From Roseateles saccharophilus (GTDB lineage: Bacteria; Pseudomonadota; Gammaproteobacteria; Burkholderiales; Burkholderiaceae_C): DNA of 64,000 nt. The stretch spans positions 1 to 64,000 of the forward strand of contig NZ_SMBU01000016.1 of the NCBI RefSeq assembly GCF_004342485.1, written 5' to 3'. How positions within the stretch are numbered: position 1 is the stretch's first letter; each line of letters starts with the position of its first letter. Under the pieces are notes generated by a model. That model did not search any database. It was not told the origin of the DNA and was given only the letters and a program-made list of their open reading frames with translations. A program made the position numbers and the translations under genes. Shown here piece after piece: positions 24,502 through 52,462 of the stretch.

Positions 24502-24511
24502 CGCCTCTCCT

Positions 24512-33663: not shown

Positions 33664-33697
33664 ATCCGGCTGTTCTCGGCCGCGCTAGGCTACGCCC

Positions 33698-34150
33698 ATG
33701 TTCGCCGCAAGACGCATCGTCAAAGCCTGGGGACGCCGGATCATCGGCGGCTTCATTGCGACCTTGCTGCTCAGCCAGCTTGCGCTGGCGGCGTACGCGT
33801 GTCCGAAACTCGGCGCCAGCCACGCGGCCGCGATGCAGGCATCCGGCATGGCGATGAGTGCTGCGGCCGAGATGGCCTCGATGCCGGACTGCCATGCGAT
33901 GCCGGGCACGATGGACGAGAAGGCGCCGCAGCTGTGCCGCGCGCATTGCAGCAACGACGGGTCCGCGGCCTCGGTGCCGCATGCTAAGGACTTCAAGCCC
34001 AGCGCCGTGCAGCTGATCGGGTTGGCCTATGTGGCGGCGCCCGTCCTGATCGTGCCGGAAGCAGCCGAGCCTGGCCGCTTCACGCTCCAGCCGGACGAGC
34101 GATCCGGCTTCCCACCGCGCTACCTCACCCTGCAGGTCCTCCGAAATTGA
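33698..34150 (+). CDS. Small exported Cx3C/Met-rich protein, copy 1
   Basis: The 150-residue protein has a basic N-terminus, a hydrophobic export segment (GGFIATLLLSQLALAAYAC) and a Met-rich stretch (GMAMSAAAEMASMPDCHAMP). The pair CRAHC is followed by SNDGS and a hydrophobic C-terminal half. It resembles the proteins at 43431 and 51287: same export segment, early Cys, and a C-x3-C pair in the middle. No named family was recognised. The motif recalls the C-x3-C of Sco copper proteins, so periplasmic Cu binding is a fair guess. No ribosome site is visible. Confidence 0.65.
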   Translation: MFAARRIVKAWGRRIIGGFIATLLLSQLALAAYACPKLGASHAAAMQASGMAMSAAAEMASMPDCHAMPGTMDEKAPQLCRAHCSNDGSAASVPHAKDFKPSAVQLIGLAYVAAPVLIVPEAAEPGRFTLQPDERSGFPPRYLTLQVLRN

Positions 34151-34224
34151 CGCCTTGAGACGCGTCTGCCGCGCCGTTGTCGCGGTAGGCGGGCTGTTTG
34201 CGGCTTTCAGTTTCGAGGACCACC

Positions 34225-35553
34225 ATGAACATCTCTTATCCCGCTGCGATGGCGCGGCGGTGCTGCGGCCAACGGGCCAAACCGTTCCCGCCTGCGTTCC
34301 CGTCCACGTGCCCATCAGCTACCCGTGCGCGGCGAGTCCCGGGCCTGCTGCTGGCCACCTTTCTGGCATGTTTACCGGCCGCATCCCAAGCTCTCAGCTT
34401 CAGTGAGGCGGTCGCATTGGCGCAGGGCCAGAGCCCCGCACTGTCGGCACAGCAGCTGCAGATCGCTGCAGCGGCCTCGGTTCAGGTGTCAGCCGGCGCT
34501 CTGCCTGATCCGAAGCTGTCGGTCGGCGTCGAGAGCCTGCCGGTCAGCGGCATGGATCGCTGGAGCCTGACGCGGGACTTCATGACGATGCAGCGCATTG
34601 CGCTGATGCAGGACGTGCCCAACGCGGCCAAGCGAGAGGCGCAGCGGCAGACCGCCCAGGCGCGCACCGAACGCGAACGGGCCTTGCTGGTGATTCAGCG
34701 GCTGCAGCTTCAGCTCGATCTCAGCCTGGCATGGATCGCTGCGCAGTCGGCCGACCAGCGCAAGTCGCTGCTGGATGAATTGCTGGCCGAAAACCAGCGA
34801 CTTCAGGAGAGCCTGCCCGCGCGCATCGCCGCCGGCAGCGCCCAAGCGACGGACCTGTTGATGGCACGTCAGGAAGCCCTGGGCCTCAAGGATCGGCAGG
34901 ACGAGCTGGCACGAGATCGCCTCAAGGCGCGGTCCGCGCTGCGCCGCTGGCTGGGCGCCCGCGCCGACGAACCGCTCGCGGACCCGCCGCCAACCCTGCG
35001 CATCCCTTTGGAGCAGCTGCGTGCCAATCTCGACCGGCACGCCGAGCTGGCGCTGTACCCGGCGATGCGGCAGATGGCGCAGGCCGAAATGAGCGAAGCA
35101 CAGGCGGAGAACCGCGGTGATTGGGGCTGGGAGGTGGCCTACAGCCGGCGCGGCCGGCAATGGGGTGACATGGTGTCGGTGCAGTTGAGCTTCGACCTGC
35201 CGTGGCAGAAGGAGCGCCGGCAGCAGCCGCAGATCCGGGCCAAGCAGTTGGAGGCGCAGCGTGTCGAGGCGGAGCAGGAAGACGTGGCCCGTCGCCACCT
35301 GCAGGAGTTGGATGACGCCGCTGCAGAGCTGTCCACCTTGGAGCGCCAGATCGAACGGCTGGTGTCCACCGGCATCAGCCTGAGCCGTGAGCGCGCCTCG
35401 CTGGCACTGACCAACTACCAAACCGCCAAGGGTGACCTGAGCAACGTGCTCGGCGCGCGAGCCCAGGTGCTGGAGAGCCGACTGCGGCTGATTGACCTGA
35501 CCGCGCAGCGCGATGTCCTCATCGCCCGCCTGAACAGCCTGACCGCGCCCTGA
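34225..35553 (+). CDS. cusC: CusC-type outer-membrane factor
   Basis: The 442-residue TolC-family protein has a long N-terminus with the export segment LLLATFLACLPAASQALSFS. Two helical OEP repeats follow, with ALPDPKLSVGVESLP in the first and LTNYQTAKGDLSNVLGARAQ in the second. There is no lipobox Cys after the signal. It heads the CusCBA operon (gap of 11 bp to cusB) and should be the outer-membrane duct for Cu(I)/Ag(I) efflux. The ATG at 34225 is chosen; an upstream start at 34198 lies too near the previous stop. Confidence 0.88.
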   Translation: MNISYPAAMARRCCGQRAKPFPPAFPSTCPSATRARRVPGLLLATFLACLPAASQALSFSEAVALAQGQSPALSAQQLQIAAAASVQVSAGALPDPKLSVGVESLPVSGMDRWSLTRDFMTMQRIALMQDVPNAAKREAQRQTAQARTERERALLVIQRLQLQLDLSLAWIAAQSADQRKSLLDELLAENQRLQESLPARIAAGSAQATDLLMARQEALGLKDRQDELARDRLKARSALRRWLGARADEPLADPPPTLRIPLEQLRANLDRHAELALYPAMRQMAQAEMSEAQAENRGDWGWEVAYSRRGRQWGDMVSVQLSFDLPWQKERRQQPQIRAKQLEAQRVEAEQEDVARRHLQELDDAAAELSTLERQIERLVSTGISLSRERASLALTNYQTAKGDLSNVLGARAQVLESRLRLIDLTAQRDVLIARLNSLTAP

Positions 35554-35564
35554 GGAGCACGACC

Positions 35565-37049
35565 ATGAACACGAAGAAGATCATCGCCGGGCTCACGCTG
35601 CTGGCCGCCGGCATCGCGATCGGCTATGGCGCCTCACAGTGGCGCAGCTCACACTCGACGGGCGATACCCAGGGGCCGGGCGCCTCGGAAACCCCTGACC
35701 GCAAGGTGCTGTACTGGTACGACCCCATGCAGCCGACACAGAAGTTCGCCAAGCCCGGCAAGTCGCCCTTCATGGACATGCAGTTGCAGCCCAAGTACGC
35801 CGACGAAGGCGGTCAGGCCGACAACGGCGTGACGGTGTCCGGGCAGACCATTCAGTCGCTGGGCCTGCGCACTGCACCTGTCGAGCGCGGCCGGTTCGCC
35901 GCCAGCGTCGATGTGGTGGGCACGGTGCAGCTCAACGACCGCGATGTCAGCATCGTGCAGGCCAGGTCCGGCGGCTTCGTCGAGCGCGTCTACGCCCGGG
36001 CGCCCGGCGACGTCATCGCGGCAGGCGCGCCCCTGGTGGACCTGCTCTTGCCGGAGTGGATCGGCGCGCAACGAGAGTTCCTCGCCGTGCGCGCCCTGAA
36101 AGACGAAACCCTGCTGGCAGCGGCCCGGCAGCGCCTGCAGTTGCTCGGCATGCCGGCGACGGTCATCGACCAGGTCGAGCGCAGCGGGGATGTCCAGGGC
36201 CGGTACACGGTGACGGCGCCCCAGGGTGGCCTGATCGCCGAACTGATGGTTCGCCAGGGCATGACGGTGTCTGCCGGCATGAGCCTGGCGCGCATCAACG
36301 GACTCTCGACGGTCTGGCTCGAGGCGGCCGTGCCGGAGGCGCAAAGCGGGACCACCCAGGTCGGGCAATCCGCCGAGGTCCGGCTGGCGGCGTTCGCGGG
36401 CGAGACCTGGCGGGCGCGTGTCGTGAGCATCCTGCCCGAAGCCAACAAAGAGTCCCGCACGGTGCGGGTGCGCCTGGAGGTTCCCAATCCGGGGCAGCGC
36501 CTGAAGGCCGGCATGACCGGTCAGGTGAGCCTCCAGGGCCGCGAGCTTGAAGCCCTGCTGGTTCCGAGCGAAGCCGTGATCCGTACCGGGCGGCGCGCAG
36601 TCGTCTATGTCGTCGACGCGCCGGGCAAGTTCCACCCGGTCGAGGTGCAGCTGGGCGCGGAGGTCGACGACAAGCTGGCCATCCTGGGAGGGCTGACGGC
36701 CGGGCAGCAGGTGGTGGCCTCCGCGCAGTTCCTGATCGACTCCGAGGCCAGCCTCAAGGGCATCCTGCCCGCAGCGGCTGCCGCGTCGGCGGCAGGTGGT
36801 GCGGCATCGGCCGCCACGGTGCCGGCGGCGTTCTCGGTGACCGGTGTCATCCAGAACGTCTCGCCGACGGAGATGACTTTGGCGCACGAGGCTGTGCCTG
36901 GCTTGAAGTGGCCGGCGATGACCATGGCCTTCAAGCTGGCGGATCCCAAGCTGGCCCAAGGCCGCAAGCCCGAACAGAAAGTCCGGTTCACATTCGAGCA
37001 GCGGGGGGACGACTACGTCATCACGCGCATCGAGGAGGTGTCGCGATGA
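35565..37049 (+). CDS. cusB: CusB adaptor fused to a C-terminal CusF domain
   Basis: The 494-residue membrane-fusion protein has an N-terminal anchor and a metal-binding loop with Met55, Met70 and Met72 (YWYDPMQ then KSPFMDMQL). The 15- and 17-residue spacings equal those of E. coli M49, M64 and M66. The usual barrel-sandwich and helical-hairpin domains follow. From about residue 420 the protein continues into a CusF-like domain ([20 protein letters not shown], then [10 protein letters not shown], which includes the Trp and Met ligands). The chaperone is thus tethered to the pump. It overlaps cusA as ATGA. Confidence 0.93.
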
Positions 37050-40000
37050 TCGCCCGCCTGATTCGCTGGTCGGTCAAGAGCCGCTTCCTCGTGCTGCTGG
37101 CGACGCTGATGCTGACCGCCTGGGGCATCTGGGCGGTGCGCAGCACGCCCGTCGACGCCTTGCCCGACCTGTCCGACGTCCAGGTCATCATCCGCACGAC
37201 CTACCCGGGGCAGGCGCCGCAGATCGTCGAGAACCAGGTGACCTATCCGCTGGCGACGACGATGCTGTCCGTGCCGGGCGCGAAGACGGTGCGCGGCTTC
37301 TCGTTCTTCGGCGACTCTTTCGTGTACGTGCTGTTCGAAGACGGCACGGACTTGTACTGGGCACGGTCGCGCGTATTGGAATACCTCAACCAGGTGCAGG
37401 GCCGGCTGCCTGCCACGGCCAAGGCCAGCCTCGGGCCCGATGCGACCGGGGTGGGATGGATCTTCCAGTACGCGCTGGTCGACCGCAGCGGCAAGAACGA
37501 CCTGGCACAGCTGCGTGCGCTGCAGGATTGGTTCCTGAAGTTCGAACTGAAGAGCCTGCCCAATGTGGCAGAGGTCGCCTCCGTCGGCGGCATGGTCAAG
37601 CAGTACCAGGTCGTGGTGAACCCGATCAAGCTGGCGGGCTACGGCCTGAACCAGGCGCAGGTCCGCGACGCGGTGATGCAGGCCAACCAGGAGTCGGGCG
37701 GCTCTGTGCTGGAGCTTGCCGGCGCCGAGTACATGGTGCGGGCCAGCGGCTACCTGAAGACGCTGGATGATTTCCGCGCGATCCCGCTGGTGTCGCGTGG
37801 CGGCGTGCCGGTCAGGCTGGGTGACGTCGCGGTCGTACAGCAGGGACCCGAGATGCGCCGCGGCATCGCGGAGCTGGACGGCGAAGGCGAGGTAGCGGGC
37901 GGCGTGGTGATCCTGCGCTCGGGCAAGAACGCCCAGGAGACCATCGCCGCGGTCAAGGCCAAGCTTGCAGAACTGCAGAGCAGCCTGCCCAAGGGCGTCG
38001 AGATCGTCACGACCTACGACCGCAGCGCGCTCATCGAGCGCGCCATTCGCAACCTGACGACCAAGCTGGGCGAGGAATTCCTGGTGGTGGCGATCGTCTG
38101 CGCCATCTTCCTGTGGCATTTGCGCTCGGCGCTGGTCGCCATCATCTCGTTGCCGCTGGGTGTGATGACGGCCTTCCTCGTGATGCGGTACCAGGGCATC
38201 AACGCCAACATCATGTCGCTGGGCGGCATCGCCATCGCCGTCGGCGCGATGGTGGACGCGGCCGTCGTGATGATCGAGAACGCGCACAAGAAGCTGGAAG
38301 CCTGGCAGCACCAGAACCCTGGGAAAACGCTCCAAGGCGCCGAGCACTGGGAGGTCATCACGCAGGCGGCCGAGGAGGTTGGGCCGGCGCTGTTCTTCTC
38401 GCTGCTCATCATCACCTTGTCCTTCGTGCCCGTGTTCACGCTGGAAGCCCAGGAGGGGCGCCTGTTCGGGCCGCTGGCGTTCACGAAGACCTATGCGATG
38501 GCGGCGGCGGCGGGCCTGTCGGTCACGCTGATACCGGTGCTGATGGGCTTTTGGATCCGCGGCCGCATCCCCAATGAGCACAAGAACCCGATCACGCGGG
38601 CGTTGATTGCCGTCTACCGGCCGTGCCTGGAATGGGTGCTCGGGCGTCCGAAGACGACGCTGATCGTCGCTGTGCTGACACTGTTGACGACGGCCTGGCC
38701 GCTCAGCCAACTGGGCGGAGAGTTTCTGCCGCGGCTGGACGAAGGCGATCTGCTCTACATGCCGTCGGCGCTGCCGGGCCTGTCCGCCCAGCGGGCCACC
38801 GAGCTGCTGCAGCTGAGCAACCGCATGATCAAGACCGTCCCTGAGGTGGAGCGAGTCTTCGGCAAGGCCGGCCGCGCCGAAACCGCGACCGACCCTGCGC
38901 CCCTGGAAATGTTCGAGACGACCGTCAAGCTCAAGCCGCGCGAACAGTGGCGCGCCGGCATGACGCCGGACCGTCTGGTCGAAGAGTTGGACAAGGCGGT
39001 CAGGATTCCTGGCCTGTCCAACATCTGGATCCCGCCCATCCGCAACCGCATCGACATGCTGGCCACCGGGATCAAGAGTCCCATCGGCGTGAAGGTGACC
39101 GGCAGCGACCTGCGCGTCATCGACCGGATTGCGAGCGAGGTCGAACAGGTGGCCAAGGGCATCCCCGGTGTGACGTCGGCCCTGGCGGAACGGCTCACGG
39201 GCGGGCGCTACATCGACGTGCGTATCGACCGCGTGGCGGCTGGCCGCTACGGGCTCAACATCGCCGAAATCCAGTCAGTGGTCGCGGGTGCAGTGGGCGG
39301 CGAGAACGTCTCGGAGACTATCGAGGGCCTGGCGCGATTCCCCATCAACATCCGCTACCCCAGGGAGTGGCGGGACTCGCCCGAGCGGCTGACGCAACTG
39401 CCGATCTCCACGCCGATGGGCCAGCAGATCACGCTGGGGACCGTGGCGACCGTCGTCATCACGGACGGTCCGCCGATGCTCAAGAGCGAGAACGCGCGGC
39501 CCTCCGGGTGGGTCTACGTCGACGTGCGTGGCCGGGACCTGGCGTCAGTGGCGAACGAACTGCGGGCCGCCGTTGCCCGGCAGGTGAAGCTGGAACCGGG
39601 TGTCAGCGTCGCCTATTCGGGCCAGTTCGAGTACCTGGAGCGAGCCAACGCCCGGCTCAAGGTCGTCGTGCCGGCCACGCTGCTGATCATCTTCGTGCTG
39701 CTGTACCTGACCTTCGGCCGATGGGACGAGGCGGCACTGATCATGGCGACCTTGCCGTTCGCGCTGACGGGCGGCATCTGGTTCCTGTACCTGCTGGGCT
39801 ACAACCTCTCCATCGCGACGGGCGTCGGCTTCATCGCGCTGGCGGGCGTGGCGGCCGAGTTCGGCGTCGTCATGCTCATCTACCTCAAGCATGCCGTCGC
39901 GGACCGGCGCCCCGACGGCGCGGCGCTGACGTTGGCTGAACTGCTGGATGCGATCCGCGAGGGCGCGGTGCTTCGGGTGCGACCCAAGGCCATGACGGTG

Positions 40001-40213
40001 GCGGTGATCCTGGCCGGCCTGGTGCCCATCGTCTGGGGCAGCGGAACAGGTTCGGAGGTGATGAGCCGCATCGCAGCGCCCATGCTGGGCGGCATGGTGA
40101 CGGCGCCGCTGCTGTCCCTGTTCGTCATTCCAGCGGCCTACCTGCTGATGCGTCGGCCGCGCAGGAAAGCAGCCATGGCCGGCGCGCCGGCCGGGCAAGG
40201 CCCCGCCGCCTGA
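37046..40213 (+). CDS. cusA: CusA heavy-metal RND efflux pump
   Basis: The 1055-residue HME-type RND protein has the start [18 protein letters not shown]. Twelve predicted spans and two large periplasmic loops are present. Three Met residues form the copper path: Met572 ([10 protein letters not shown]), Met622 (APLEMFETT) and Met671 ([18 protein letters not shown]), matching E. coli M573, M623 and M672. The proton-relay region includes [18 protein letters not shown]. It expels Cu(I)/Ag(I) with CusB and CusC. The start overlaps cusB by 4 bp. Confidence 0.96.
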
Positions 40214-40219
40214 AAGGAA

Positions 40220-40242
40220 GAAGCCCTGCGGCGCAGGGCTTC
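40220..40242. terminator. Hairpin terminator after cusA
   Basis: GAAGCCCTGC (40220-40229), loop GGC, GCAGGGCTTC (40233-40242): a perfect 10-bp stem 7 bp past the cusA stop. There is no T-run on either side. It separates cusA from the oppositely oriented DUF305 gene. Confidence 0.7.
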
Positions 40243-40391
40243 GAAGAACTGGGAGCTTGAGCCATCCGGCGTCGGCAGCGTGGAGCTGCATCTGCCATCC
40301 GGGTCGCGCTCCGCTAGACGGAGGGTCGACTGACCGATGGCGAATGATATTTCAGCGGGCTGGCATGGATGAGTGCAAGCCGGCTAGTGCG

Positions 40392-40802: not shown

Positions 40803-40867
40803 GGTGCTCTCCTGGGGTGGTTGGAAAAACTTGGCCAGGAACCTGCTGCGCAGCCTGGCCGGGATGC

Positions 40868-42634: not shown

Positions 42635-42691
42635 GCCAAGGGCGGCGGTGATGACGGCGGCGAGGATGATGCCGGTGGCGTCTCCGGCGAC

Positions 42692-42952: not shown

Positions 42953-43430
42953 GTGTCGGCGGTCCGTCTGCACGAGCGCGTTGACGTCGATGCGAGGCGC
43001 GAGCGTCACGTCTTCAAGCGCGGGGTCTCGCAAACTGCCGCCAATGCTAGGAGTCGGGTCCCGCGCACCAAGGTGTTGAACGCGCTACGGCCATGTAGGA
43101 AATGACTGATGCGTCGCCTCAGCTGACGCGAAAGACAGTTCATTGATACGCGCTCGCGCGGACAGCAGGTCGAAACTGGTTCTTGTACTAATGCCACGGG
43201 TGCAACGACTCGGGTAACCGCTTGTCATGGGCGATCTCGTTCGGGCCCCGGCGCACCAAGCGCGAAAGGAAGCTGAACCCATGGGTCAGCACGTTGGTCA
43301 AGCGGGCACGACAGCCGGAGCCGCATACCGGCCTGCAGGCATTCGACGCGAGTTGATCTTCATCAACGTCGGGAACCAGCGTGCCTCCTAAGCTCGGTCC
43401 CATGCTCACCTGATTTGCCACGAGACTTCC
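42953..43430. other. Intergenic region with FNR box; no clear gene
   Basis: These 478 bases separate the divergent multicopper-oxidase and Cx3C genes. Short frames exist on both strands, but none has a domain, ribosome site or consistent coding signal. The stretch near 43188-43330 on the minus strand could be an old gene remnant that I cannot identify. The FNR-type box and its -10 lie at 43353-43394. Confidence 0.5.
43353..43366 (+). promoter_or_regulatory. FNR/Anr box and class-II promoter
   Basis: TTGATCTTCATCAA is a perfect FNR/Anr dyad. TAAGCT at 43389-43394 is at the -10 position of a class-II promoter centred at -41.5, giving a start near 43401, 30 bp before the next gene. Confidence 0.7.
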
Positions 43431-43823
43431 ATGTTTAGCCACCGACGACAGCTACGCCGCTGGGCAGCCCGCCTGCTGCTGGTGTGGCTGTTCGGCGTGG
43501 CGACGGGTGTGGCGAACGCGTGTGCAATGGGCTTCTCTCCGGGAGCTGAAGCGGTAGCCCAAACTGCGTCGTCGCATCATCACGATGGGGATGAAGGCGA
43601 CCACGCCAAGGGAAATTGCCAGGACTTTTGCCAGAAGGCTTCGGTCACCGTGCCGAGTGCGCAGTCCGCGCCCGACAAGGTGACTCTGGCGGCACTGCCC
43701 TTGTTCGCGAGCATCGCGCCGGCGCCCGTGCTGCCGCAGATCTCCGCCTTCTGGCCGGCCATGCCGCCCGACCGGCAAGGCGCGCCGCCAATCTCGATCC
43801 TCTTCCTGCGACTGGCGCTATAG
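43431..43823 (+). CDS. Small exported Cx3C/His-rich protein, copy 2
   Basis: The 130-residue protein has a basic N-terminus, an export segment (LLLVWLFGVATGVANAC) and a His/Asp stretch (SSHHHDGDEGDHAKGN). CQDFC is followed by QKASVTVP and a hydrophobic Pro-rich C-terminus. It is a relative of the protein at 33698: both have an early Cys after the export segment, a C-x3-C pair, then Ser/Val-Pro. It is first in the plus-strand copper unit that leads to copA, directly under the FNR-type promoter. Periplasmic metal binding is inferred. Confidence 0.65.
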   Translation: MFSHRRQLRRWAARLLLVWLFGVATGVANACAMGFSPGAEAVAQTASSHHHDGDEGDHAKGNCQDFCQKASVTVPSAQSAPDKVTLAALPLFASIAPAPVLPQISAFWPAMPPDRQGAPPISILFLRLAL

Positions 43824-43983
43824 CGCCTCCGAGGTCCATTTCCTCGCGGACTGCCCTTGGGGCTGCGCCGCACAGGCACCCGTGGCTGCGCGCCACGTGC
43901 GTGACCGACAAAGAAGCCCACCCAACCGTCGGCGTGCTGCGTATGCAGTCGCATCGACATCGCTTGTCCTTTGGAGATCAACC

Positions 43984-44286
43984 ATGAAGAACCTTCACAC
44001 TCTTTCGTTCGTCCTTGCTGTCGCTGCGTTTGCCGTGCCGGCTCTGGCCCAGGAACGCGCCGCGTCCGCGCCCATGCCGGCGATGGCCGCGTCGATGCCG
44101 ATGACGTCAGGTGACTGCGCCAAGAGCGCGATGAAGCGACACGATCACGGCGCCGAGCGCAACACGGGCACGAGCGCGACCGCCACGACGATGCCTTGCG
44201 CCGCGGATGGTGCCGCTTCCTCGGCAAGCACGAGCAAGAAGAAGGCGGGGCACGACCACGCCAAGTTCCACAAGAACCAGGGGTGA
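43984..44286 (+). CDS. Small periplasmic His/Met protein
   Basis: The 100-residue protein has a signal peptide (FVLAVAAFAVPALA), a Met/Ala stretch (APMPAMAASMPMTSGDC), scattered Cys and His residues, and a tail KKKAGHDHAKFHKNQG. Low complexity and metal-ligand residues suggest a periplasmic metal buffer. I do not recognise a family. The ATG at 43984 follows GGAGATCAACC. It lies between the Cx3C gene and the DUF2933 gene in one direction. Confidence 0.6.
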   Translation: MKNLHTLSFVLAVAAFAVPALAQERAASAPMPAMAASMPMTSGDCAKSAMKRHDHGAERNTGTSATATTMPCAADGAASSASTSKKKAGHDHAKFHKNQG

Positions 44287-44324
44287 GCCAGAGGTCCGTC
44301 CTCGGCTTCCCAAGGAGCAACGTA

Positions 44325-44609
44325 ATGACCACGCATCACCAACACCCCGAGTCCCCAGGCGGGCCGAACTGGTCGCGCATCAACCAATGGCTGCTATGGA
44401 TTGGCCTCGCAGTCGCGGTGGGCTGGCTGTTCTTCGGCCATAGCGCGCATTTGCTGCAGATCGCGCCGTTCCTGATCCTGCTCGCCTGCCCACTGATGCA
44501 CCTCTTCGGGCACGGCGGCCACGGCCACGGCGGGCATCAATCCGACGAACAGCCCGTACCGCCCACACGCGCCGAGCCAAAACAGGACCCCGGCGGCCAT
44601 ATGCATTGA
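44325..44609 (+). CDS. DUF2933 small membrane protein, copy 1
   Basis: The 94-residue protein has two short spans (WLLWIGLAVAVGWLFFGHSA, then LLQIAPFLILLACPLMHLFG) and a His/Gly tail (HGGHGHGGHQ, ending GGHMH). The CPLMHLF motif and His tail define DUF2933, found beside copper and other metal genes. The His tail probably binds metal at the membrane face. AAGGAGCAACG precedes the ATG. It ends 27 bp before copA. Confidence 0.8.
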   Translation: MTTHHQHPESPGGPNWSRINQWLLWIGLAVAVGWLFFGHSAHLLQIAPFLILLACPLMHLFGHGGHGHGGHQSDEQPVPPTRAEPKQDPGGHMH

Positions 44610-44636
44610 GCGCCGTCCAACCACAAGGACAACATC

Positions 44637-46400
44637 ATGAAACCTTCCCCTGCTGCGGCGACCCTGACGCCGCCCACGCTCAGCCGCCGCACGCTGCTCG
44701 GCGGACTCGGCGCCGGCTCGCTGGTGGCGCTCGCCGCGCTGCCGCGTCGCGCCTTCGGCATGCCCGTATTCGACCTCACGCGGCTCGTGCCTCAGACGGT
44801 GGTCGAGCTGACGATCGAAGAGACCGACCTTGAGTTCGGCGGCATTCGCCGCAAGGCCAAGACCATCAACGGCACGGTGCCCGGGCCGACGCTGTGCTTC
44901 CACGAAGGCGACGCCGTGACCGTGCGCGTCACCAATAAGCTGAGCGAGGACACTTCGATCCACTGGCACGGCCTGAAGGTGCCGGCGAACATGGATGGCG
45001 TGCCCGGTGTCAGCTTTGCGGGGATCAAGCCCGGCGATTCCTTCGAATACCGCTTCACGGTGCAGCAGAGCGGCACCTACTGGTACCACAGTCATTCGGG
45101 CCTGCAGGAACCGGAGGGCATGTATGCGCCGTTGGTGATCCTGCCGCGCCATCGCGACCCGTTCCAGTTCGACCGCGACTACGCAATCCTGATCAGCGAG
45201 TGGACGCCCGACGCACCGCCTGCCGTGTACCGGAACCTAAAGAAGATCGACGGCTACTACAACTACCACAAGCGCACGCTGATCGACTTCTACCGCGAGT
45301 TGCAGAACGCTCCTGATAACGCGGCACGCCGTCGTGTGATGGACGAGCGACTCGCCTGGATGCGTATGCGCATGGATCCGACCGACCTCTCGGACGGTCC
45401 CGAGGACACGGTGTTCTTGCTGCAGGGCAACGACGCAGACCAGAACTACACGGCGCTGTTTGAACCCGGCGAGCGGGTGCGCTTGCGCCTGATCAACGGC
45501 ACCGCGCTGACCTTCATGGACGTGCGCATTCCGGGACTGCGCATGACGGTGGTGCAGGCCGATGGCCAGAACATCGAGCCGGTGGTGGTCGACGAACTGC
45601 GCATCGGCAACGGCGAGACCTACGACGTGATCGTGCAGCCTTATGAGATGCGCGCCTACCCGATCGTTGCCGAGGCGATGGCACGCACCGGCATGGCGCT
45701 GGGCACGCTGGCTCCGCGCGCGGGCATGCGTGCTGAGGCACCGCCGCTGCGCGAGCGGCCGCTGCGCACGCTGGCGGACATGGCGGGCCACACCGGGCAT
45801 GGAGAGGCGTCGGGCGTAGCGCCGGCCGCCACCGGACCGCATGCCGGCCCCGGAGCGAAGACCGCGCCAACAGGTGCGACCGACCCACATGCCGGTCACG
45901 ACATGCCAATGGTGATGGGCGACACGATGCAGCCCGCTCACGCGATGCCGCCCGCCGCGCAAAGCGCGTATCGCAAGCTCTCCTACGCCGATCTGCGTTC
46001 GCTAGCCTCCAGTCACGAATCTGCTGAGGCGCCGCTGGAAGTGGGCGTGCGCCTGACCGGCGTGATGTGGCGCTACATCTGGACCCTCAACGGCGAGAAG
46101 CTCGGCGAGGCGCAGCCGGTCAAGCTCAAGCGCGGGCAGCGCGTGCGCCTGTCGATGGTCAACGAGACCATGATGGAGCACCCGATGCACCTGCACGGCT
46201 TCTTCGCCCGTCTCGTCAACGGGCAAGGCGATCGGGGCGCGCTGAAGCACACCTTCATCGTCAACCCGGGGCAGACGGTAGTGGCCGATTTCACCGCCGA
46301 CGAGGCCGGTGCCTGGGTCTTCCACTGCCACCTTTTCTATCACGCGATGGCCGGCATGGGGATGGCATTCCTCGTCGACGGCCTGCCGGCGAGGAGCTGA
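44637..46400 (+). CDS. copA: CopA/PcoA copper-resistance multicopper oxidase
   Basis: The 587-residue enzyme has a Tat signal (SRRTLLGGLGAGSLVALAAL). Copper sites are SIHWHGLKVPANMDGVPG near residue 103, YWYHSHSGLQEPEG near 145, HPMHLHGFFARL near 515 and FHCHLFYHAMAGM near 562. The Met/His-rich insert between 380 and 440 (HDMPMVMGDTMQPAHAM) is typical of CopA. It oxidises Cu(I) in the periplasm together with CopB, which follows within 2 bp. This gene is distinct from the P-type ATPase also called copA at 18430. Confidence 0.93.
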   Translation: MKPSPAAATLTPPTLSRRTLLGGLGAGSLVALAALPRRAFGMPVFDLTRLVPQTVVELTIEETDLEFGGIRRKAKTINGTVPGPTLCFHEGDAVTVRVTNKLSEDTSIHWHGLKVPANMDGVPGVSFAGIKPGDSFEYRFTVQQSGTYWYHSHSGLQEPEGMYAPLVILPRHRDPFQFDRDYAILISEWTPDAPPAVYRNLKKIDGYYNYHKRTLIDFYRELQNAPDNAARRRVMDERLAWMRMRMDPTDLSDGPEDTVFLLQGNDADQNYTALFEPGERVRLRLINGTALTFMDVRIPGLRMTVVQADGQNIEPVVVDELRIGNGETYDVIVQPYEMRAYPIVAEAMARTGMALGTLAPRAGMRAEAPPLRERPLRTLADMAGHTGHGEASGVAPAATGPHAGPGAKTAPTGATDPHAGHDMPMVMGDTMQPAHAMPPAAQSAYRKLSYADLRSLASSHESAEAPLEVGVRLTGVMWRYIWTLNGEKLGEAQPVKLKRGQRVRLSMVNETMMEHPMHLHGFFARLVNGQGDRGALKHTFIVNPGQTVVADFTADEAGAWVFHCHLFYHAMAGMGMAFLVDGLPARS

Positions 46401-46402
46401 AC

Positions 46403-47125
46403 ATGCGTCTTTCCAAATCGGTAGGGCGCACGCTTGCGCCAGTCTTGCCCGTCTTGTTAGGGCTGTCGCTCGCAGCCGTGGCTGCAGGCGCGCGGGCCGC
46501 CGACTGGCTCAGCTACACGCGCATCGAGGCGGGTTTCGGTCGCGCTGGCGGCGAAAGCCAGCGCTCGGTCGAGGCCGAAGGCTACGTGGGCGGCGATACC
46601 CATCGCCTGCGCTGGCAACTGCTGGGCGAGTCGCCGCGCTCGGTGGCCGAGCCGACCTCGGGCCGCCTGATGTATGGCTACCGCATCGCCGACTACTGGG
46701 ACGCAGTGGCCGGCGTGCGTGTCGATCGCGCGATCGGCGGCGTGTCGCGCAACTACGCCGTGTTCGGCTTCAACGGCCTGGCGCCGTACCTGTTCGACCT
46801 CGACGCGACGCTGAGCGTTGGCGATGGTCGTGCGCTGTTCGACATCGAAGGCCGGCACGAGATGCTGCTGACGCAGCGCTGGATCGTCTATCCGTTTGCG
46901 GCGCTCGGTGCGGCATCGCGCAGCGATACGCCGATCGGCCTGGGCAGCGGCATCAACCGCACGCAGTTCGGTCTCGGCTCCCGCTACGAGTTCACGCGCC
47001 AGGTCGCGCCCTTCGTCGCGCTCAGCCGCGTCAACCTGCATGGCGGCGCAGCAGATGCGGCGCGCAGCGCAGGTGAACGCGCGAACGAGACCGTCGTGCG
47101 TGCCGGCGTGCGGCTGGTCTTCTGA
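46403..47125 (+). CDS. copB: CopB/PcoB outer-membrane copper protein
   Basis: The 240-residue protein has a signal peptide (cleavage near ARAADW). The CopB beta-barrel shows SYTRIEAGFGRA, GRLMYGYRIADYWDAVAGVR, GLAPYLFDLDATLSVGDG and GLGSRYEFTRQVAPFVA. It lacks the long Met/His-rich N-terminal extension of many CopB proteins, so it is a short form. It follows copA by 2 bp. Confidence 0.9.
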   Translation: MRLSKSVGRTLAPVLPVLLGLSLAAVAAGARAADWLSYTRIEAGFGRAGGESQRSVEAEGYVGGDTHRLRWQLLGESPRSVAEPTSGRLMYGYRIADYWDAVAGVRVDRAIGGVSRNYAVFGFNGLAPYLFDLDATLSVGDGRALFDIEGRHEMLLTQRWIVYPFAALGAASRSDTPIGLGSGINRTQFGLGSRYEFTRQVAPFVALSRVNLHGGAADAARSAGERANETVVRAGVRLVF

Positions 47126-47152
47126 ACACGCGGCGGCAAAGGGAGGAACGTG

Positions 47153-48298
47153 ATGCAACGCTGGATCCGGTTCACCGGCCAGACCGTGGCCGCCGGCGTC
47201 CTCGCCTGGAGCCTGCTGTGGCTGACCCGGCCGGACGCACCACCGGCCGGCCCTGCGGTCGACCTGAGCCTACCCGTGGCGTCGCCGGTCGCGCAGCAGC
47301 CCATGCCCGCGTCGGACGCCCACGCCAGCTACAGCGCAGCAGTGCGCATCGCGATGCCGTCGGTGGTCAACATTTACACCGCCAAGCAGATGCCGCGCGG
47401 CCGCGGGTGGCTCGACCAGCGGCGCCACGACTACGGCGAAGGCGTGCCGCAGCGTGCCACCAGCCTGGGCTCGGGCGTGATCTGGCGTCCCGACGGCTAC
47501 ATCGTCACCAACTACCATGTGGTCGAAGGAGCGGACGAGATCGCGGTCGTGCTGCCCCAGCGCGCGCCGCTGCGTGCGCGTGTGGTCGGGGCCGACCCTG
47601 AGAGCGACCTCGCGGTGCTGCGGGTCGAGGCGCGCGAGCTGCCAGCGATCCAGCGCCGCGGCGGCAACTCGCTCGACATCGGCGACGTGGTTCTGGCCAT
47701 CGGCAACCCGTTTGGCGTCGGCCAGACCGTCACACAAGGCATCGTCAGCGCTACCGGCCGCAACCACCTGGGCATCAACACGTTCGAGAACTTCGTGCAG
47801 ACCGATGCGTCGATCAACCCCGGCAACTCCGGCGGCGCGCTGGTCGATACGGCGGGACAGCTGGTCGGCATCAACACCGCGATCTACACCCGATCAGAAG
47901 GGTCGGTGGGCATCGGCTTCGCGATTCCTGTCGATCTGGTCGACACAGTGGCCGAGGCGTTGATGGCCGGCGGCCGCGTGCGCCGTGGCTGGCTGGGCAT
48001 CCAGGCGCAGGACGTCGATACAGCGCTGGCCGACAACCTGTCGTTGCCGGTACGCGGCGGCGTGCTGGTGGCGGCCGTGGAGCCGCGTGGCCCCGCGGAT
48101 CGTGGTGGCCTGCGGCCGGGCGACGTGATCAAGGCGGTCGACGGCCGACCCGTGACCGACAGCGCCGCGCTGACGCAACTCGCGGCGGCCGGCAAACCCG
48201 GCAGCTCGATACAGCTGGACATCGAACGACGCGGCGCGAGGGTGACGCTGGCCGTCACGCTCGGCCAGCGCCCGGCGCTGCGGCGCATTGAAGACTGA
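47153..48298 (+). CDS. DegP/DegQ-like periplasmic serine protease
   Basis: The 381-residue HtrA-type protease has an N-terminal anchor. The catalytic triad is His in IVTNYHVVEGADE, Asp in ESDLAVLRV and Ser in NPGNSGGALVD. One C-terminal PDZ domain follows (GVLVAAVEPRGPADRGGLRP, then GDVIKAVDG). One PDZ domain and a membrane anchor are DegS-like, while the loops look like those of DegQ. It may remove proteins damaged by copper. The ATG at 47153 has GGAGG 6 bp before it. Confidence 0.88.
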   Translation: MQRWIRFTGQTVAAGVLAWSLLWLTRPDAPPAGPAVDLSLPVASPVAQQPMPASDAHASYSAAVRIAMPSVVNIYTAKQMPRGRGWLDQRRHDYGEGVPQRATSLGSGVIWRPDGYIVTNYHVVEGADEIAVVLPQRAPLRARVVGADPESDLAVLRVEARELPAIQRRGGNSLDIGDVVLAIGNPFGVGQTVTQGIVSATGRNHLGINTFENFVQTDASINPGNSGGALVDTAGQLVGINTAIYTRSEGSVGIGFAIPVDLVDTVAEALMAGGRVRRGWLGIQAQDVDTALADNLSLPVRGGVLVAAVEPRGPADRGGLRPGDVIKAVDGRPVTDSAALTQLAAAGKPGSSIQLDIERRGARVTLAVTLGQRPALRRIED

Positions 48299-48332
48299 AG
48301 GAACTCCCGCTCCAACCTCGAAAGGGCATGAC

Positions 48333-48650
48333 ATGGAAACGATTGAACTCGAAGTGAAGGGCATGACCTGCGGCTCATGCGTCGACTCGGTGAAGCGCGT
48401 GCTGCAGCGTGTCCCGGGTGTCAGTGGCGTGGATGTGAGCCTGTCGCTCGGCCGCGCGCGCGTGACCACGACCGCGAATACTGCTGCGACGCTCGCCGCC
48501 CTGACTGCGGCCCTGGACGCAGCCGGCTATCCGGCCGCCCCTGCTGCGGCCATCGCAGCAGGGGGCCCGCCGTCATCTGACCACGCGCACGCCGGCGGTT
48601 GCGGTCACGCCGCAGGTCCGAAGAAGCCGGGCGGCTGCTGCTGCGGCTGA
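48333..48650 (+). CDS. HMA-domain copper chaperone, copy 2, with Cys tail
   Basis: The 105-residue protein has an N-terminal HMA domain with GMTCGSCVDS near residue 10 and an Ala-rich linker. The His/Cys tail is SSDHAHAGGCGHAAG, ending GGCCCG. It shares the CCCG end with the CopZ-like protein at 21002 although the linkers differ. A cytoplasmic metal chaperone, probably for one of the three P1B ATPases. The ATG at 48333 begins the HMA fold. Confidence 0.85.
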   Translation: METIELEVKGMTCGSCVDSVKRVLQRVPGVSGVDVSLSLGRARVTTTANTAATLAALTAALDAAGYPAAPAAAIAAGGPPSSDHAHAGGCGHAAGPKKPGGCCCG

Positions 48651-48673
48651 GCCGCGCCACCAGGAACATCGAA

Positions 48674-49462
48674 ATGAACAAGAAGAACGAGAGCAAGGCC
48701 CAGGCGAGAAACGACGCGCCCGACTACGACGCGCAACTGCACCTGCTGCAGATCGAGCTGGTGAAGCTGCAGCGTCACTTCATCGGCTGCGGCGACCGCA
48801 TCTTGCTGCTGCTCGAGGGACGCGACGCGGCGGGCAAGGACGGCACCATCAAGCGCATTGTCGAGCACCTGAGTCCGCGCGAGACCCGTTTCATCGCACT
48901 GGGCAAGCCGTCCGATCGCGAACAGGGACAGTGGTACTTCCAGCGCTACGTGCCGCTGCTGCCGACGCGCGGCGAGTTCGCGCTGTTCAACCGCAGTTGG
49001 TACAACCGCGCCGGCGTCGAGCGGGTGATGGGCTTCTGCACCGCCGAGGAGTACGAGGAGTTCATGCAGACCGTACCGGCCTTCGAACAGATGCTGGTGC
49101 GATCCGGCGTGAAGCTGCTGAAGTACTACCTCGACATCTCGCGCAAGGAACAGGCCCGGCGCCTCGAGGACCGGCGCAGCAATCCGCTCAAGCAGTGGAA
49201 GCTCAGCCCCATCGACGAAGTCGCGCAGAAGAAGTGGAAGGCCTACGGCAAGGCGCGCGACGCGATGCTGCGCCACACCCACCACGCGGCCGCACCGTGG
49301 GCAGTGGTGCGCGCCGACGACAAGGAGCAGGCGCGGCTGAACCTCATGCGGCACGTGCTGCGGCGCCTGCACTACCCCGACAAGAACCCGGAACTGCTGG
49401 CGGTGGACGAGGCGGTGGTCCTCGACTGGGCCGTCGATGCGGCGCCACCTGCCTTGGCCTGA
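48674..49462 (+). CDS. ppk2: Polyphosphate kinase 2
   Basis: The 262-residue enzyme has the PPK2 P-loop LLLLEGRDAAGKDGTIKRI near residue 48. The lid and core motifs RGEFALFNRSWYNRAGVERV and KYYLDISRKEQARRLEDR follow, and the length is standard for one-domain PPK2. It makes nucleoside triphosphates from diphosphates with polyphosphate, or the reverse. Polyphosphate is a known intracellular metal store, which fits a metal island. It lies between the chaperone and DUF3141 genes. Confidence 0.92.
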   Translation: MNKKNESKAQARNDAPDYDAQLHLLQIELVKLQRHFIGCGDRILLLLEGRDAAGKDGTIKRIVEHLSPRETRFIALGKPSDREQGQWYFQRYVPLLPTRGEFALFNRSWYNRAGVERVMGFCTAEEYEEFMQTVPAFEQMLVRSGVKLLKYYLDISRKEQARRLEDRRSNPLKQWKLSPIDEVAQKKWKAYGKARDAMLRHTHHAAAPWAVVRADDKEQARLNLMRHVLRRLHYPDKNPELLAVDEAVVLDWAVDAAPPALA

Positions 49463-49474
49463 TGCGAGAACACC

Positions 49475-51163
49475 ATGAATACACGCCTGATCGATAGCAA
49501 CCCGTCCACGCCCGCACCCGAGCCTTCGCCTTGGCCACTGGATGCCTGGACACGCTACGCGGCCGATGCGTGGTGGCGCGGGGTCGCGGCGATGGACACG
49601 CTGCGCCAGCGCGCCGACAACATGCAGGCGCACGAGGCGGCCGGGATGCCGCCGCTGCTGCACTTCGAGGCCGAGGTGGCGGCGGACGCCCACACGTTCG
49701 ACCCACCATCAAACTACCGGCTTTTGCGCGTCACGCGCTGCGGCAGCGACCACTTCGAGGAGCATGTGAAGCGCGGCGCTGCGCCAGTATTGGTGGTCGA
49801 TCCGCGCGCCGGCCACGGCCCTGGCATTGGCGGCTTCAAGCGCGACTCCGAGGTCGGGATGGCGCTGCTCGAAGGCCACCCGGTTTACTTCGTCGTGTTC
49901 GACCCCGAACCCGTCGAAGGCCAGACGCTCGGCGCCGTCATCGGATCGCTGGCGCGCTTCATCGACATCGTCGCGCAACGGCACCGTGGCAAGCCGCCGA
50001 TCGTCTACGGCAACTGCCAGGGCGGCTGGGCGGTGACGATGGCGCTGTCGCATTGCGAGCGCCGCGCGGGCCTGGCGGTGCTTAACGGCTCGCCGCTGTC
50101 GTACTGGGCCGGCGAGGCGGGCGTCAACCCGATGCGCCTGGCCGGCGGCTTCACCGGTGGTGCGTGGGCGACGCATCTTCTCGCCGACCTGGAAGGCGGG
50201 CGCTTCGACGGTGCCTGGCTGGTGCAGAACTTCGAGACCTTGCGCCCCGAAGGCGTGTTCAAGAAGTACGACACGCTGTTCGCGCGCCCGGATGCCGAGC
50301 GCGAGCGTTTCCTCGAGTTCGAGCGCTGGTGGAACGGCTACTACTTTCTCGGTCGCGAAGAGATCCTCTCGATCGTGCGAGACCTGTTCATCGGCAATCG
50401 ACTCGAGAAGGGTGAAGTCGTCGTCGACCACGGCTGCCGCGCTGACCTGACGCGCATCCGGACGCCTATGCTCATCTTCAGCTCGGAGGGCGACAACATC
50501 ACGCCGCCTCACCAGGCGCTGGGCTGGCTGCGCGCGGTGTATCCGTCGACCGAGGCGCTCGTCGCGGCCGGGCAGCGCATCGTCTACCTGATCAACCCCA
50601 AGGTCGGGCACCTGGGCATCTTCGTATCGGCCGACGTGGCGCGCCGAGAGCACCGAGCGATCCTGCACCACAGCGCGGCAATCGAGGCGTTGCCACCTGG
50701 CCTGTACGAAATGAAGCTCAACGCCCCGGCTGGACCGGACGACGTGCCGGGCGCTCAGTTCGAGCCGCGCCGGCTGGAGCAGATCCACTTCGAGGCGAAC
50801 CCGCCCGGGTTCGAGCGCGTGCAGGCGCTGTCAGAGCGGCTCGATGCGCTCTACGGCACGTGGCTGTCTCCGCTGGTACAGCAACTGGCCGCTCCGCTGC
50901 TGGCGCTCGGCATGGAGCGGCTACACCCGATGCGAACCAGCCGCATCGTCTGGTCCGAGCACGTGGTGCCGGTGCTCGCGCTGCTGCCGTGGCTGCGCAC
51001 GGCGATCGAAGCCAGCGGGATGCGCGACGTGCAGCGCGACGCCAATCCGTGGTATGTCGCCGAGCGCGCTGTTGCACATGCGACCGAGCAGGCGATCGAA
51101 TCGTGGCGCGTCGCCCGCGACCAATGGGCCGAGGCGGCCTTCAGGCGCCTCTACCCGGCGTGA
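49475..51163 (+). CDS. DUF3141 alpha/beta hydrolase (PhaC-like nucleophile)
   Basis: The 562-residue protein matches DUF3141. The alpha/beta-hydrolase core has the nucleophile elbow YGNCQGGWAVTMAL, whose G-x-C-x-G-G form is that of PHA synthases. The acid residue is in FSSEGDNITPPHQALGW and the catalytic His is in KVGHLGIFVS. DUF3141 proteins often accompany PHA or polyphosphate genes; their substrate is unknown. It follows ppk2 by 12 bp. Confidence 0.85.
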   Translation: MNTRLIDSNPSTPAPEPSPWPLDAWTRYAADAWWRGVAAMDTLRQRADNMQAHEAAGMPPLLHFEAEVAADAHTFDPPSNYRLLRVTRCGSDHFEEHVKRGAAPVLVVDPRAGHGPGIGGFKRDSEVGMALLEGHPVYFVVFDPEPVEGQTLGAVIGSLARFIDIVAQRHRGKPPIVYGNCQGGWAVTMALSHCERRAGLAVLNGSPLSYWAGEAGVNPMRLAGGFTGGAWATHLLADLEGGRFDGAWLVQNFETLRPEGVFKKYDTLFARPDAERERFLEFERWWNGYYFLGREEILSIVRDLFIGNRLEKGEVVVDHGCRADLTRIRTPMLIFSSEGDNITPPHQALGWLRAVYPSTEALVAAGQRIVYLINPKVGHLGIFVSADVARREHRAILHHSAAIEALPPGLYEMKLNAPAGPDDVPGAQFEPRRLEQIHFEANPPGFERVQALSERLDALYGTWLSPLVQQLAAPLLALGMERLHPMRTSRIVWSEHVVPVLALLPWLRTAIEASGMRDVQRDANPWYVAERAVAHATEQAIESWRVARDQWAEAAFRRLYPA

Positions 51164-51196
51164 TGGGCACACGCATGTCGGCATCTCGTCGCTGGG

Positions 51197-51210
51197 TTGA
51201 TCTCCGTCAA
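51197..51210 (+). promoter_or_regulatory. FNR/Anr-like box before the third Cx3C gene
   Basis: TTGATCTCCGTCAA has one mismatch to TTGAT-N4-ATCAA. TAACCT at 51232-51237 is within one base of the expected class-II -10. The start of transcription would be about 42 bp before the gene at 51287. Confidence 0.6.
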
Positions 51211-51286
51211 GGGTTTGTTCCCATGAACGCTTAACCTGGTTCTTAGAGCACATCCACCACACGGACCACTGGCGCACCCACCGATC

Positions 51287-51796
51287 ATGAGCACGATGAA
51301 GTCGACCTGGCGACGAATCGCTTGCAGCGTGATCCTCGCGCTTTTCACGGCGAGCGTGATTGGCGGCACGGTGTGCACCGGACACATCGCGCCGCATGCC
51401 TCGCACGCGCACGGTTGGATGTCGCTTCCATCGCATTCGTCCGAGGCGCAGCATTCGCATGCGGAACCGGATCGCATCGCAGCCAGCGCACGCCAGGACG
51501 GCGCTGCGGGTGCGATTACCAATACGAGCACAGAGCAGGCAGGCGACCCGTCATCCGACGATGACGATTGCGACGCGGGCTGCAACCCGCCCGTCTACGT
51601 CACGGCAACCACGGCAGCGGACGGTACCAAACAGATCGACCCTGGGTCGTCGGTGCAACTCGATGTTGTCCCTGTTCAGTGGGTGCTCGAGGTCCGGGCC
51701 GCTGCGCCCGATGAGCGCTGGCTGCATGCGCCACCCGCTGCGGCGGCCCCGCCCCCGCAAAACCTGTTCTCCGTCTCGGCGCGCCTGCGCATTTGA
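51287..51796 (+). CDS. Small exported Cx3C/His-rich protein, copy 3
   Basis: The 169-residue protein has a basic N-terminus, an export segment (SVILALFTASVIGGTVC), a His-rich stretch (HIAPHASHAHGWMSLPSHSS, then EAQHSHAE) and an acidic run SSDDDDCDAGC before NPPVY. Its layout repeats that of the proteins at 33698 and 43431: early Cys after the export segment, a C-x3-C pair, then a hydrophobic Pro-rich C-terminus. Periplasmic metal binding is inferred. An alternative start is the ATG at 51296. Confidence 0.65.
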   Translation: MSTMKSTWRRIACSVILALFTASVIGGTVCTGHIAPHASHAHGWMSLPSHSSEAQHSHAEPDRIAASARQDGAAGAITNTSTEQAGDPSSDDDDCDAGCNPPVYVTATTAADGTKQIDPGSSVQLDVVPVQWVLEVRAAAPDERWLHAPPAAAAPPPQNLFSVSARLRI

Positions 51797-52417: not shown

Positions 52418-52462
52418 TCGCAGGCTTTCCCAAGCAAGTTCCACCACTTCAAGGAGCCGACC

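Follow-up and report, generated by a model that had tools for sequence, protein, structure and literature searches.

Within a 64,000-nucleotide (nt) stretch of the Roseateles saccharophilus genome (contig NZ_SMBU01000016.1, positions 1 to 64,000; hereafter the window), three dispersed open reading frames (ORFs) encode small, putatively exported proteins with a C-x3-C motif, which we call P1, P2, and P3 (Table 1). Our analysis indicates that P1 and P2, perhaps joined by P3, are probably leader ORFs of the CutF/CruR/CopL kind that would be transcribed from FNR-dependent class II promoters, giving a gate that responds first to oxygen and then to copper. An original prediction had described the three as one oxygen-controlled set of small periplasmic copper ligands. 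All three ORFs do carry the export segment and C-x3-C pair that it named. The notion of three of a kind holds for P1 and P2, whose profiles mark them as homologous; P3 matches them in layout only, with no homology detected.

Each protein has a basic N-terminus followed by a hydrophobic stretch ending at or near a Cys, which by eye form a predicted Sec export segment, then a C-x3-C pair and a Pro-containing tail. Also judged by eye, P1 is Met-rich, and P2 and P3 are rather His-rich. Counted from the end, a Pro-Pro pair begins at residue 12 in P1 and P2 and at residue 14 in P3, which places it within the last 15 residues in all three, as the rule for CutF-like proteins has it (PMC9973294). The gaps to the next same-strand gene (74, 160, and 171 nt for P1, P2, and P3) all lie within the 1000 nt of the CutF-like rule. 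Its length limit of 150 amino acids (aa) includes P2 (130), is borderline for P1 (150), and leaves P3 (169) outside; an older limit was <170 aa (PMC9973294).

Homologues were collected from 150 genomes of the same bacterial family at expectation values (E) up to 0.001, with 30 loci listed for each of the P1 and P2 searches. Matches were found in 30 genomes for P1, in 18 for P2, and for P3 in its own genome only. Three genes were matched by the P1 and P2 searches alike, and a full-length alignment of the two profiles (hhalign probability 95.4, E 1.7e-8) excludes unrelated families for this pair. From the 60 listed loci, we dropped weak or broken matches (L025, L032, L033) and second pieces or copies of genes already counted (L026, L036, L039, L044, L070). 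The 52 loci kept were sorted by their tails into 31 P1-like and 21 P2-like genes, counts that include P1 and P2 themselves. L030 and L041 were counted as P1-like although the P2 search found them, and two paralogues on contig C1 were left out of the P1-like counts. The P1-like genes comprise 18 close P1 relatives, ending in N, and 13 others, the FRI subclade, with CusD/SilD-like tails. The relatives are not independent events, and we used rules to assign their start codons, -10 elements, and next genes. Beyond the family, a plasmid search gave one partial match for P1 and none for P2. A class-wide search with the P2 profile matched at least 3 of 369 genomes with at most 10 candidates scored per genome, from which rarity outside the family does not follow.

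No Pfam or NCBIfam model passes its own cut-off for P1, P2, or P3, and only scattered weak matches arose between the P2 set and NCBIfam and between the P1 set and Pfam. Membership in DUF2946 (PF11162), the family of CruR, was rejected (P2 at 15.4 bits against a cut-off of 23.7), as was membership in the CopL family NF033807 (P2 at 16.4 bits against 40); P1 and P3 matched neither model. The claim that existing family names do not cover these proteins stands at the cut-offs of both databases, but the kind has been published as CutF-like proteins (PMC9973294).

The C-terminal part of these proteins behaves like a ruler. Both Cys residues of the C-x3-C pair are invariant in the 31 P1-like and 21 P2-like proteins, and the distance from this pair to the C-terminus is 61–67 residues in 31/31 P1-like and 61–68 in 21/21 P2-like members. 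By comparison, the distance from the export Cys to C-x3-C varies from 27 to 78 residues in the P1-like and from 32 to 57 in the P2-like proteins (Levene p 0.002 and 1e-5). The tails are nearly fixed as well. P1-like proteins have R at -2 (31/31) and P at -11 (29/31), and P2-like proteins have R at -4, L at -3, and P at -11 (21/21 each); a second Pro at -12 is less strict (24/31 and 14/21). A chain held between ribosome and membrane would need such a ruler and a free ligand would not, so the constant distance points to a leader. Because this distance coincides with near-invariant tail Pro and Arg residues, a position at the head of copper operons, and, in the P1 type, pairing with the next Shine-Dalgarno sequence, we favour reading P1 and P2 as CutF/CruR/CopL-type leader ORFs, whose nascent chains would sense copper, over reading them as free copper ligands.

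On the ligand reading, P1–P3 would persist in the periplasm as small copper-binding proteins, serving as metallochaperones or buffers and induced when oxygen is low, and their operon position would reflect simple co-expression. We regard it as improbable. The C-x3-C pair and the Met/His-rich mature part would suit such a role, and CusD of C. metallidurans, with its C-x3-C motif (CMXHC), has been interpreted in this way (PMC10304878). However, the tail and the C-x3-C-to-end distance stay near-invariant while the Met/His stretch drifts, and the RNA pairing between P1-type leader ends and the next Shine-Dalgarno sequence covaries. Published observations also run against it: without added metal only cusD is expressed and the rest of the operon needs metal (PMC10304878), a leader-like pattern, and CutF is degraded after export (PMC9973294). 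The analogy to Sco proteins drawn in the original prediction fares no better. A Sco/SenC-like ligand was rejected, as P1–P3 gave no SCO1 or thioredoxin-like Pfam match at E up to 10.

The promoters suggest how these leaders would be linked to oxygen. All three fit FNR class II geometry, with the dyad centre near -41.5 of the predicted start and the -10 element 21–22 bp beyond it. The FNR dyad and TAnnnT element predicted before each ORF were thus confirmed, at spacings of 22, 22, and 21 bp for P1, P2, and P3. These are the only three dyads with ≤1 mismatch in the window; with ≤2 mismatches, the window has 23 against 7.1 expected. Across the whole genome (5.77 Mb), 114 dyads with ≤1 mismatch compare with 11 for the reversed pattern, and about 1.3 would be expected per window. 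The full class II pattern (TTGAY-N6-CAA, 21–22 bp, TAnnnT) occurs at 19 genome sites and at none in the reversed control, and three of the 19 are the promoters of P1, P2, and P3. Separately, we observed two further class II sites with perfect dyads just past the window (contig C16, 66756-66796 and 73450-73491; L153, L154), one of them before a PPK2 gene. Contig C30 holds five class II FNR-type sites within 13 kb (6772-19531; L155-L159), which precede cytochrome-fused copper nitrite reductase-like, Usp, and DegP-like genes, with a Crp-family gene nearby.

The dyad recurs upstream of homologues. It is present with ≤1 mismatch within 150 bp upstream of 17 of the 21 P2-like genes (8 perfect), against an average of 0.06 genes in shuffles. 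A TAnnnT element follows at 21 or 22 bp in 11 of those 17, and all other spacings from 8 to 39 bp account for a single case. These upstream stretches are otherwise unrelated (median pairwise identity 27% outside the dyad), and the information content of the dyad in them is inflated by the selection of sites. In a second sample of close P2 relatives, all 18 have a dyad with ≤1 mismatch (11 perfect), and 15 of the 18 have TAnnnT at 21–22 bp. This sample spans Rubrivivax, Piscinibacter, Azohydromonas, Hydrogenophaga, Roseateles, Aquabacterium, Diaphorobacter, and unclassified Burkholderiales or Pseudomonadota. Seven of its 18 members form one close clade, five of 23 loci were dropped for repeating genomes already used, and L140 (frameshifted tail) and L139 (misplaced start) were kept. 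Among the 18 close P1 relatives, 11 combine a dyad with ≤2 mismatches and TAnnnT at 21–22 bp, a combination found in 0 of 4560 control windows. Control genes of the DUF2946 type from the same bacterial family (30 loci, taken from matches spanning 97 genomes) had a dyad with ≤1 mismatch in 0/30 cases and with 2 mismatches in 2/30. The FNR box is accordingly a feature of P2-like genes and of some close P1 relatives and does not extend to copper leaders in general.

The identity of the regulator also has to be weighed. TTGAC half-sites may also suit other members of the Crp/FNR family, and the genome has four genes matching PF00325, a count that covers the relatives detected by this model only. 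The dyad could be read by one of these, such as a Dnr/NnrR-type sensor of nitric oxide or a copper-responsive relative, in which case the signal would be nitric oxide or another cue in place of oxygen; we think this unlikely. Only one of the four, L115, has the Cys cluster CASCNLRELC (CxxC-x5-C) and an ETVSR helix, which we take to be marks of FNR. Moreover, the same motif precedes several typical low-oxygen genes. Pfam was run on the genes behind 10 of the 16 remaining class II sites: one gave no match, and the others included genes for NorB, a cytochrome-fused copper nitrite reductase-like protein, cytochrome c, two Usp proteins, an ODP-family protein, and PPK2. Two of these, the NorB gene at 397 nt and one Usp gene at 420 nt, lie far from their sites, with an intervening ORF possible. 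Oxygen control of the FNR type, as originally proposed, thus has strong support at the level of sequence: the dyads upstream of homologues are overrepresented and have the right spacing, and a gene for an FNR-like protein with the Cys motif is present.

For the P1 type, the predicted promoter and the predicted RNA structure together bracket the leader. TAnnnT ends 6–7 nt before the start codon in 16 of the 18 close P1 relatives (after the start codons of L066 and L067 had been moved upstream by hand) and in 6 of the 13 other P1-like genes. A leaderless mRNA is predicted for the close relatives, with the start codon at the predicted first base or its neighbour. In P2-like genes with a class II promoter, 21–43 nt separate TAnnnT from the start codon.

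At its other end, P1 is predicted to pair through its last codons with the region of the cusC Shine-Dalgarno sequence (pairing probability 0.999). Across the 18 close P1 relatives the mean pairing probability is 0.93, with 18/18 above 0.5, compared with 0.37 for a shuffled arm and 0.68 for the arm of another member. Duplex energy averages -27.6 kcal/mol for true pairs and -20.0 kcal/mol for crossed ones, and 0 of 5000 permutations were as good. Taken singly, 14 of the 18 beat at least 193 of 200 shuffles. Among 11 members in one register, compensatory G-C to A-U changes occur at U-15:R-5 (L053, L067) and U-16:R-4 (L054); at U-16:R-4 the pair is lost in L047, and 5 of the 11 lack the seventh pair. 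The fold of the gap behind P1 has a z-score of -1.9 (11/200 shuffles as good). The 13 FRI-type genes pair as a group (0.85 against 0.46 and 0.67; 13/13 above 0.5; 3/5000 permutations), mostly just behind the stop codon, and singly many are no better than shuffles. In L058, L059, L062, and others of this type, the next Shine-Dalgarno sequence is predicted to pair just behind the leader stop, not with the last codons. The P1 stem recalls the CutF arrangement; its putative hiding arm is made of codons of the leader itself.

A stem of this kind would by itself couple cusC to P1 translation. Plain translational coupling under FNR, with copper acting on transcription through a CusRS/CopRS-type system and no copper sensing by the nascent chain, is thus a rival explanation, and the window does contain, farther upstream, what by eye resemble two-component genes (ORFs 23146-24585 and 24512-25285). 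We give this explanation a small chance, as it leaves the invariant C-x3-C pair, its fixed distance to the end, and the conserved tail residues unaccounted for.

The P2 family appears to differ at this step. Its gap to the next gene is 125–218 nt, and folds of the gaps behind P2 and P3 have z-scores near or above zero, no better than shuffles, so structured gaps were rejected for both. C exceeds G in 17/17 P2-like gaps, as it does in 14/18 and 10/13 gaps of the close and other P1-like genes. Rho control of P2 draws on this C excess, which P1-like gaps share, and is a weak candidate. The RNA test of the P2 family covered 17 genes: it left out L020, L024, L031, and L042, whose next gene is far, misplaced, or missing, and kept the doubtful L023 and L045. 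A different feature marks these genes at the stop codon. UAG ends 20 of the 21 P2-like genes of the first set against 4 of 26 in the background, and UGA dominates the neighbourhood. UAG ends 9 of 18 in the second sample, where seven of the nine genes with another stop codon belong to one close clade that uses UGA; this weakens a conserved UAG as a general rule. Its retention in much of the P2 family would fit an arrest that depends on release factor 1.

These features suggest the following course of events for the leader reading. At low oxygen, FNR would switch transcription on. A ribosome would make the leader peptide and, as the export segment and the precedent of CutF suggest, thread the chain into the Sec channel. 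With the ribosome at the end of the ORF, a stretch of 61–68 residues would separate the C-x3-C pair from the peptidyl-transferase centre and probably place the pair just beyond the membrane, and copper bound there would hold the ribosome at or near the conserved P...R...stop tail. A copper effect has been published only for CutF of Rhodobacter capsulatus and, in the opposite direction, for CruR of Bordetella pertussis. In the case of P1, the held ribosome would cover the VLRN-stop codons that otherwise hide the cusC Shine-Dalgarno sequence, and cusCBA would be translated only then; the pairing and its covariation were computed, and the release of the stem is what we infer. For P2, a long gap without a stem might fit CruR-like protection from Rho. 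The outcome would be copper efflux and oxidation gated by oxygen first and copper second. By geometry, a ribosome arrested at Pro-Pro would fail to reach the P1 stem by about 4 bases, so an arrest at the stop codon or close to it would fit better. In its most specific form, FNR would decide whether the leaderless mRNA is made, and a copper-arrested leader with its stop codon in the A site would free the Shine-Dalgarno sequence hidden by its last codons; we advance this version tentatively and consider it rather doubtful.

Several observations weigh against the leader reading and its oxygen-then-copper gate, and the first of them concern P3. Its profile gave no detected alignment to those of P1 and P2, and no homologue was found in the 149 other genomes of the family or in plasmids. 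Among 19 other genomes of the genus there was a single weak partial match (E 0.006). The tail register differs, with Pro-Pro at -14/-13, and the MerR, DUF2933, and ICMT-like genes behind P3 are not clearly a copper operon. A simple codon model of the window picked neither P3 nor P2. There is a substantial chance, somewhat short of even, that P3 is unrelated to P1 and P2 and represents a lineage-specific exported protein, or no gene, behind its own FNR promoter. Against this stand the same class II promoter geometry, a CDAGC motif 70 residues from the end, PPP near the tail, and an RLRI end. The DUF2933 and ICMT-like genes that follow have look-alikes, by eye, behind P2-like leaders elsewhere, and position-specific GC content (0.66/0.58/0.75) fits coding. 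P3 is perhaps a member of the leader group.

The remaining counterpoints concern promoters, RNA, arrest, and precedent. A dyad with ≤1 mismatch precedes just 5 of the 18 close P1 relatives and none of the 13 FRI-type genes, one of which has a dyad with 2 mismatches. No FNR-type box was found before the two P1-like paralogues on contig C1 (215797-216033 and 226368-226583; L079), and class II sites also precede genes for a DegP-like protease and an ArsR-type regulator, which are not known low-oxygen genes. The stems of L041, L056, L057, and L075 are no better than their own shuffles at 5%, though L075, with a 29-nt gap, is uninformative. For the P2 family, a stem hiding the Shine-Dalgarno sequence was rejected (true pairs -16.6 against crossed -17.5; 4510/5000 permutations as good). 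The arrest site is uncertain, since the leading edge of a ribosome stalled at Pro-Pro falls short of the P1 stem. The term FNR is absent from the description of CutF in PMC9973294 and from the passages on CruR in PMC9426467, and FnrL is absent from the text drawn on from PMC8456105. CutO supports copper resistance with and without oxygen (PMC8456105), which indicates that an oxygen gate is no general need.

The C1 paralogues themselves end in PPPPHAILHCVxRT. Near one of them, an ORF on the minus strand (L079:8037-8510) has a CADCPC Cys cluster and the tail APPLPLPVRIAFCRWLH; it is perhaps a further leader of this kind.

The operon context supports the copper linkage of P1 and P2 originally proposed. 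P1 heads cusCBA, and P2 heads genes for a small Met/His-rich protein, a DUF2933 protein, a multicopper oxidase, and CopB (Table 1). Among relatives, 34 of the 50 next genes scanned encode an outer membrane efflux protein (OEP). P2-like genes are, by eye, often followed by a similar small protein or by DUF2933-, ICMT-, HMA-, or DUF3141-like genes, and others by OEP-like ones. Divergent from P2 lies a gene for a multicopper oxidase fused to an N-terminal DUF4396 domain (40868-42634, minus strand). Beside the copper genes, 47150-57262 encodes trypsin-PDZ (DegP-like), PPK2, DUF3141, MBL-RMMBL, pyrimidine-phosphorylase-like, and PRPP synthetase proteins. With these genes the window looks like a low-oxygen island and may recall the lxa locus of B. 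cenocepacia. Rfam gave no match in the window at gathering thresholds.

Table 1. Predicted promoters, ORFs, RNA arms, and neighbouring genes of P1, P2, and P3 (positions in the window)
Feature	Position	Strand	Basis or remark
FNR-type dyad TTGATCTGTAGCAA, 1 mismatch, P1 promoter	33650..33663	+	pattern search
-10 element TAGGCT, 22 bp past dyad; predicted +1 coincides with the A of the start codon of P1 (leaderless)	33686..33691	+	
P1, putative CutF-like leader ORF, 150 aa, CRAHC, tail PPRYLTLQVLRN	33698..34150	+	ORF and profile comparison
5' arm, P1 codons VLRN-stop (GGTCCTCCGAAATTGA), predicted pairing with cusC Shine-Dalgarno region	34135..34150	+	
3' arm TCAGTTTCGAGGACC with cusC Shine-Dalgarno (GAGGA)	34207..34221	+	
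cusC-type outer membrane efflux protein (OEP), 74 nt after P1	34225..35553	+	Pfam
cusB-type membrane fusion protein with CusF domain	35565..37049	+	Pfam
cusA-type RND pump	37046..40213	+	Pfam
FNR dyad TTGATCTTCATCAA, perfect, P2 promoter	43353..43366	+	pattern search
-10 element TAAGCT, 22 bp past dyad, P2	43389..43394	+	
P2, putative CutF-like leader ORF, 130 aa, CQDFC, tail PPISILFLRLAL, UAG stop	43431..43823	+	ORF and profile comparison
Next gene after P2 (gap of 160 nt); by eye, a small exported protein rich in Met/His	43984..44286	+	no Pfam match
DUF2933 protein, P2 operon	44325..44609	+	Pfam
Multicopper oxidase, CopA/PcoA type	44637..46400	+	Pfam
CopB; ORF as listed, true start probably near 46400	46067..47125	+	Pfam
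FNR dyad TTGATCTCCGTCAA, 1 mismatch, P3 promoter	51197..51210	+	pattern search
-10 element TAACCT, 21 bp past dyad, P3	51232..51237	+	
P3, orphan ORF with CutF-like layout, 169 aa, CDAGC, tail PPPQNLFSVSARLRI	51287..51796	+	layout and promoter
MerR-family regulator, 171 nt behind P3	51968..52417	+	Pfam
DUF2933 protein behind P3	52463..52765	+	Pfam
ICMT/PEMT-like methyltransferase behind P3	52787..53452	+	look-alikes follow P2-like leaders in other genomes (by eye)

The protein kind is already known from CutF-like proteins, CruR, and CopL, and the link to FNR is the new part. Copper-sensing nascent chains of the CutF and CruR kind were described only in 2022–2023. Among the open-access papers listed by our searches, supplements aside, we found none that describes FNR control of these leaders; the term FNR is absent from the text on CusD consulted in PMC10304878, and the main text of an FNR study in H. 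seropedicae makes no mention of copper. Our data would tie a whole leader subfamily to FNR-type promoters and join oxygen and copper in one short stretch of DNA. For E. coli and C. metallidurans, copper toxicity is reported to be higher when oxygen is absent, and the copper oxidase to depend on oxygen (PMC10304878). The same paper states that CusCBA would matter especially under anoxic conditions. An oxygen–copper gate would therefore be physiologically sensible.

The known systems differ in which parts of this design they share. CruR of B. pertussis, a DUF2946 protein (PMC9426467), is a copper-sensing upstream ORF heading its operon, as proposed for P1 and P2, with a conserved spacing between its Cys pair and a Pro motif and a long gap like that of the P2 type. 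It differs in its CxxC pair, in a RAPP motif three residues from the end, and in the direction of the response, as copper shuts off the targets of CruR (uptake). P1–P3 also stand apart from DUF2946-type genes in family score and in the dyad with ≤1 mismatch, which those 30 controls lack. CopL of Xanthomonas and Stenotrophomonas is, like P2, encoded by a small gene before a copper oxidase gene, and it does not act in trans (as reported in PMC9973294); it differs in its family model, under which P2 falls below the cut-off. CusD/SilD genes come first before cusC, and the tails of the FRI subclade, whose label we infer from this likeness, are Cys-rich like the CusD motifs of PMC10304878; these genes combine predicted Shine-Dalgarno pairing with the absence of any dyad with ≤1 mismatch. 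Sco proteins have the C-x3-C copper motif in common with P1–P3, with no match to their fold family.

The closest likeness is to CutF of the R. capsulatus cutFOG operon, which shares with P1 and P2 an export segment, a CxxxC motif, a Pro-Pro tail, and the first position in a copper operon (PMC9973294, PMC8456105). CutF function requires the CxxxC motif, the Pro-Pro tail, and a stem-loop hiding the Shine-Dalgarno sequence (PMC9973294). The P1 type has a predicted stem-loop hiding the next Shine-Dalgarno sequence, and the P2 type is without one. The P1 type may differ from CutF in forming the 5' arm from the last codons of the leader, in starting on a predicted leaderless mRNA, and in having cusCBA as its target. 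With a predicted leaderless start, a ruler from copper site to end, and last codons that would hide the next ribosome site, the P1 type offers a compact test case for leaders of the CutF kind.

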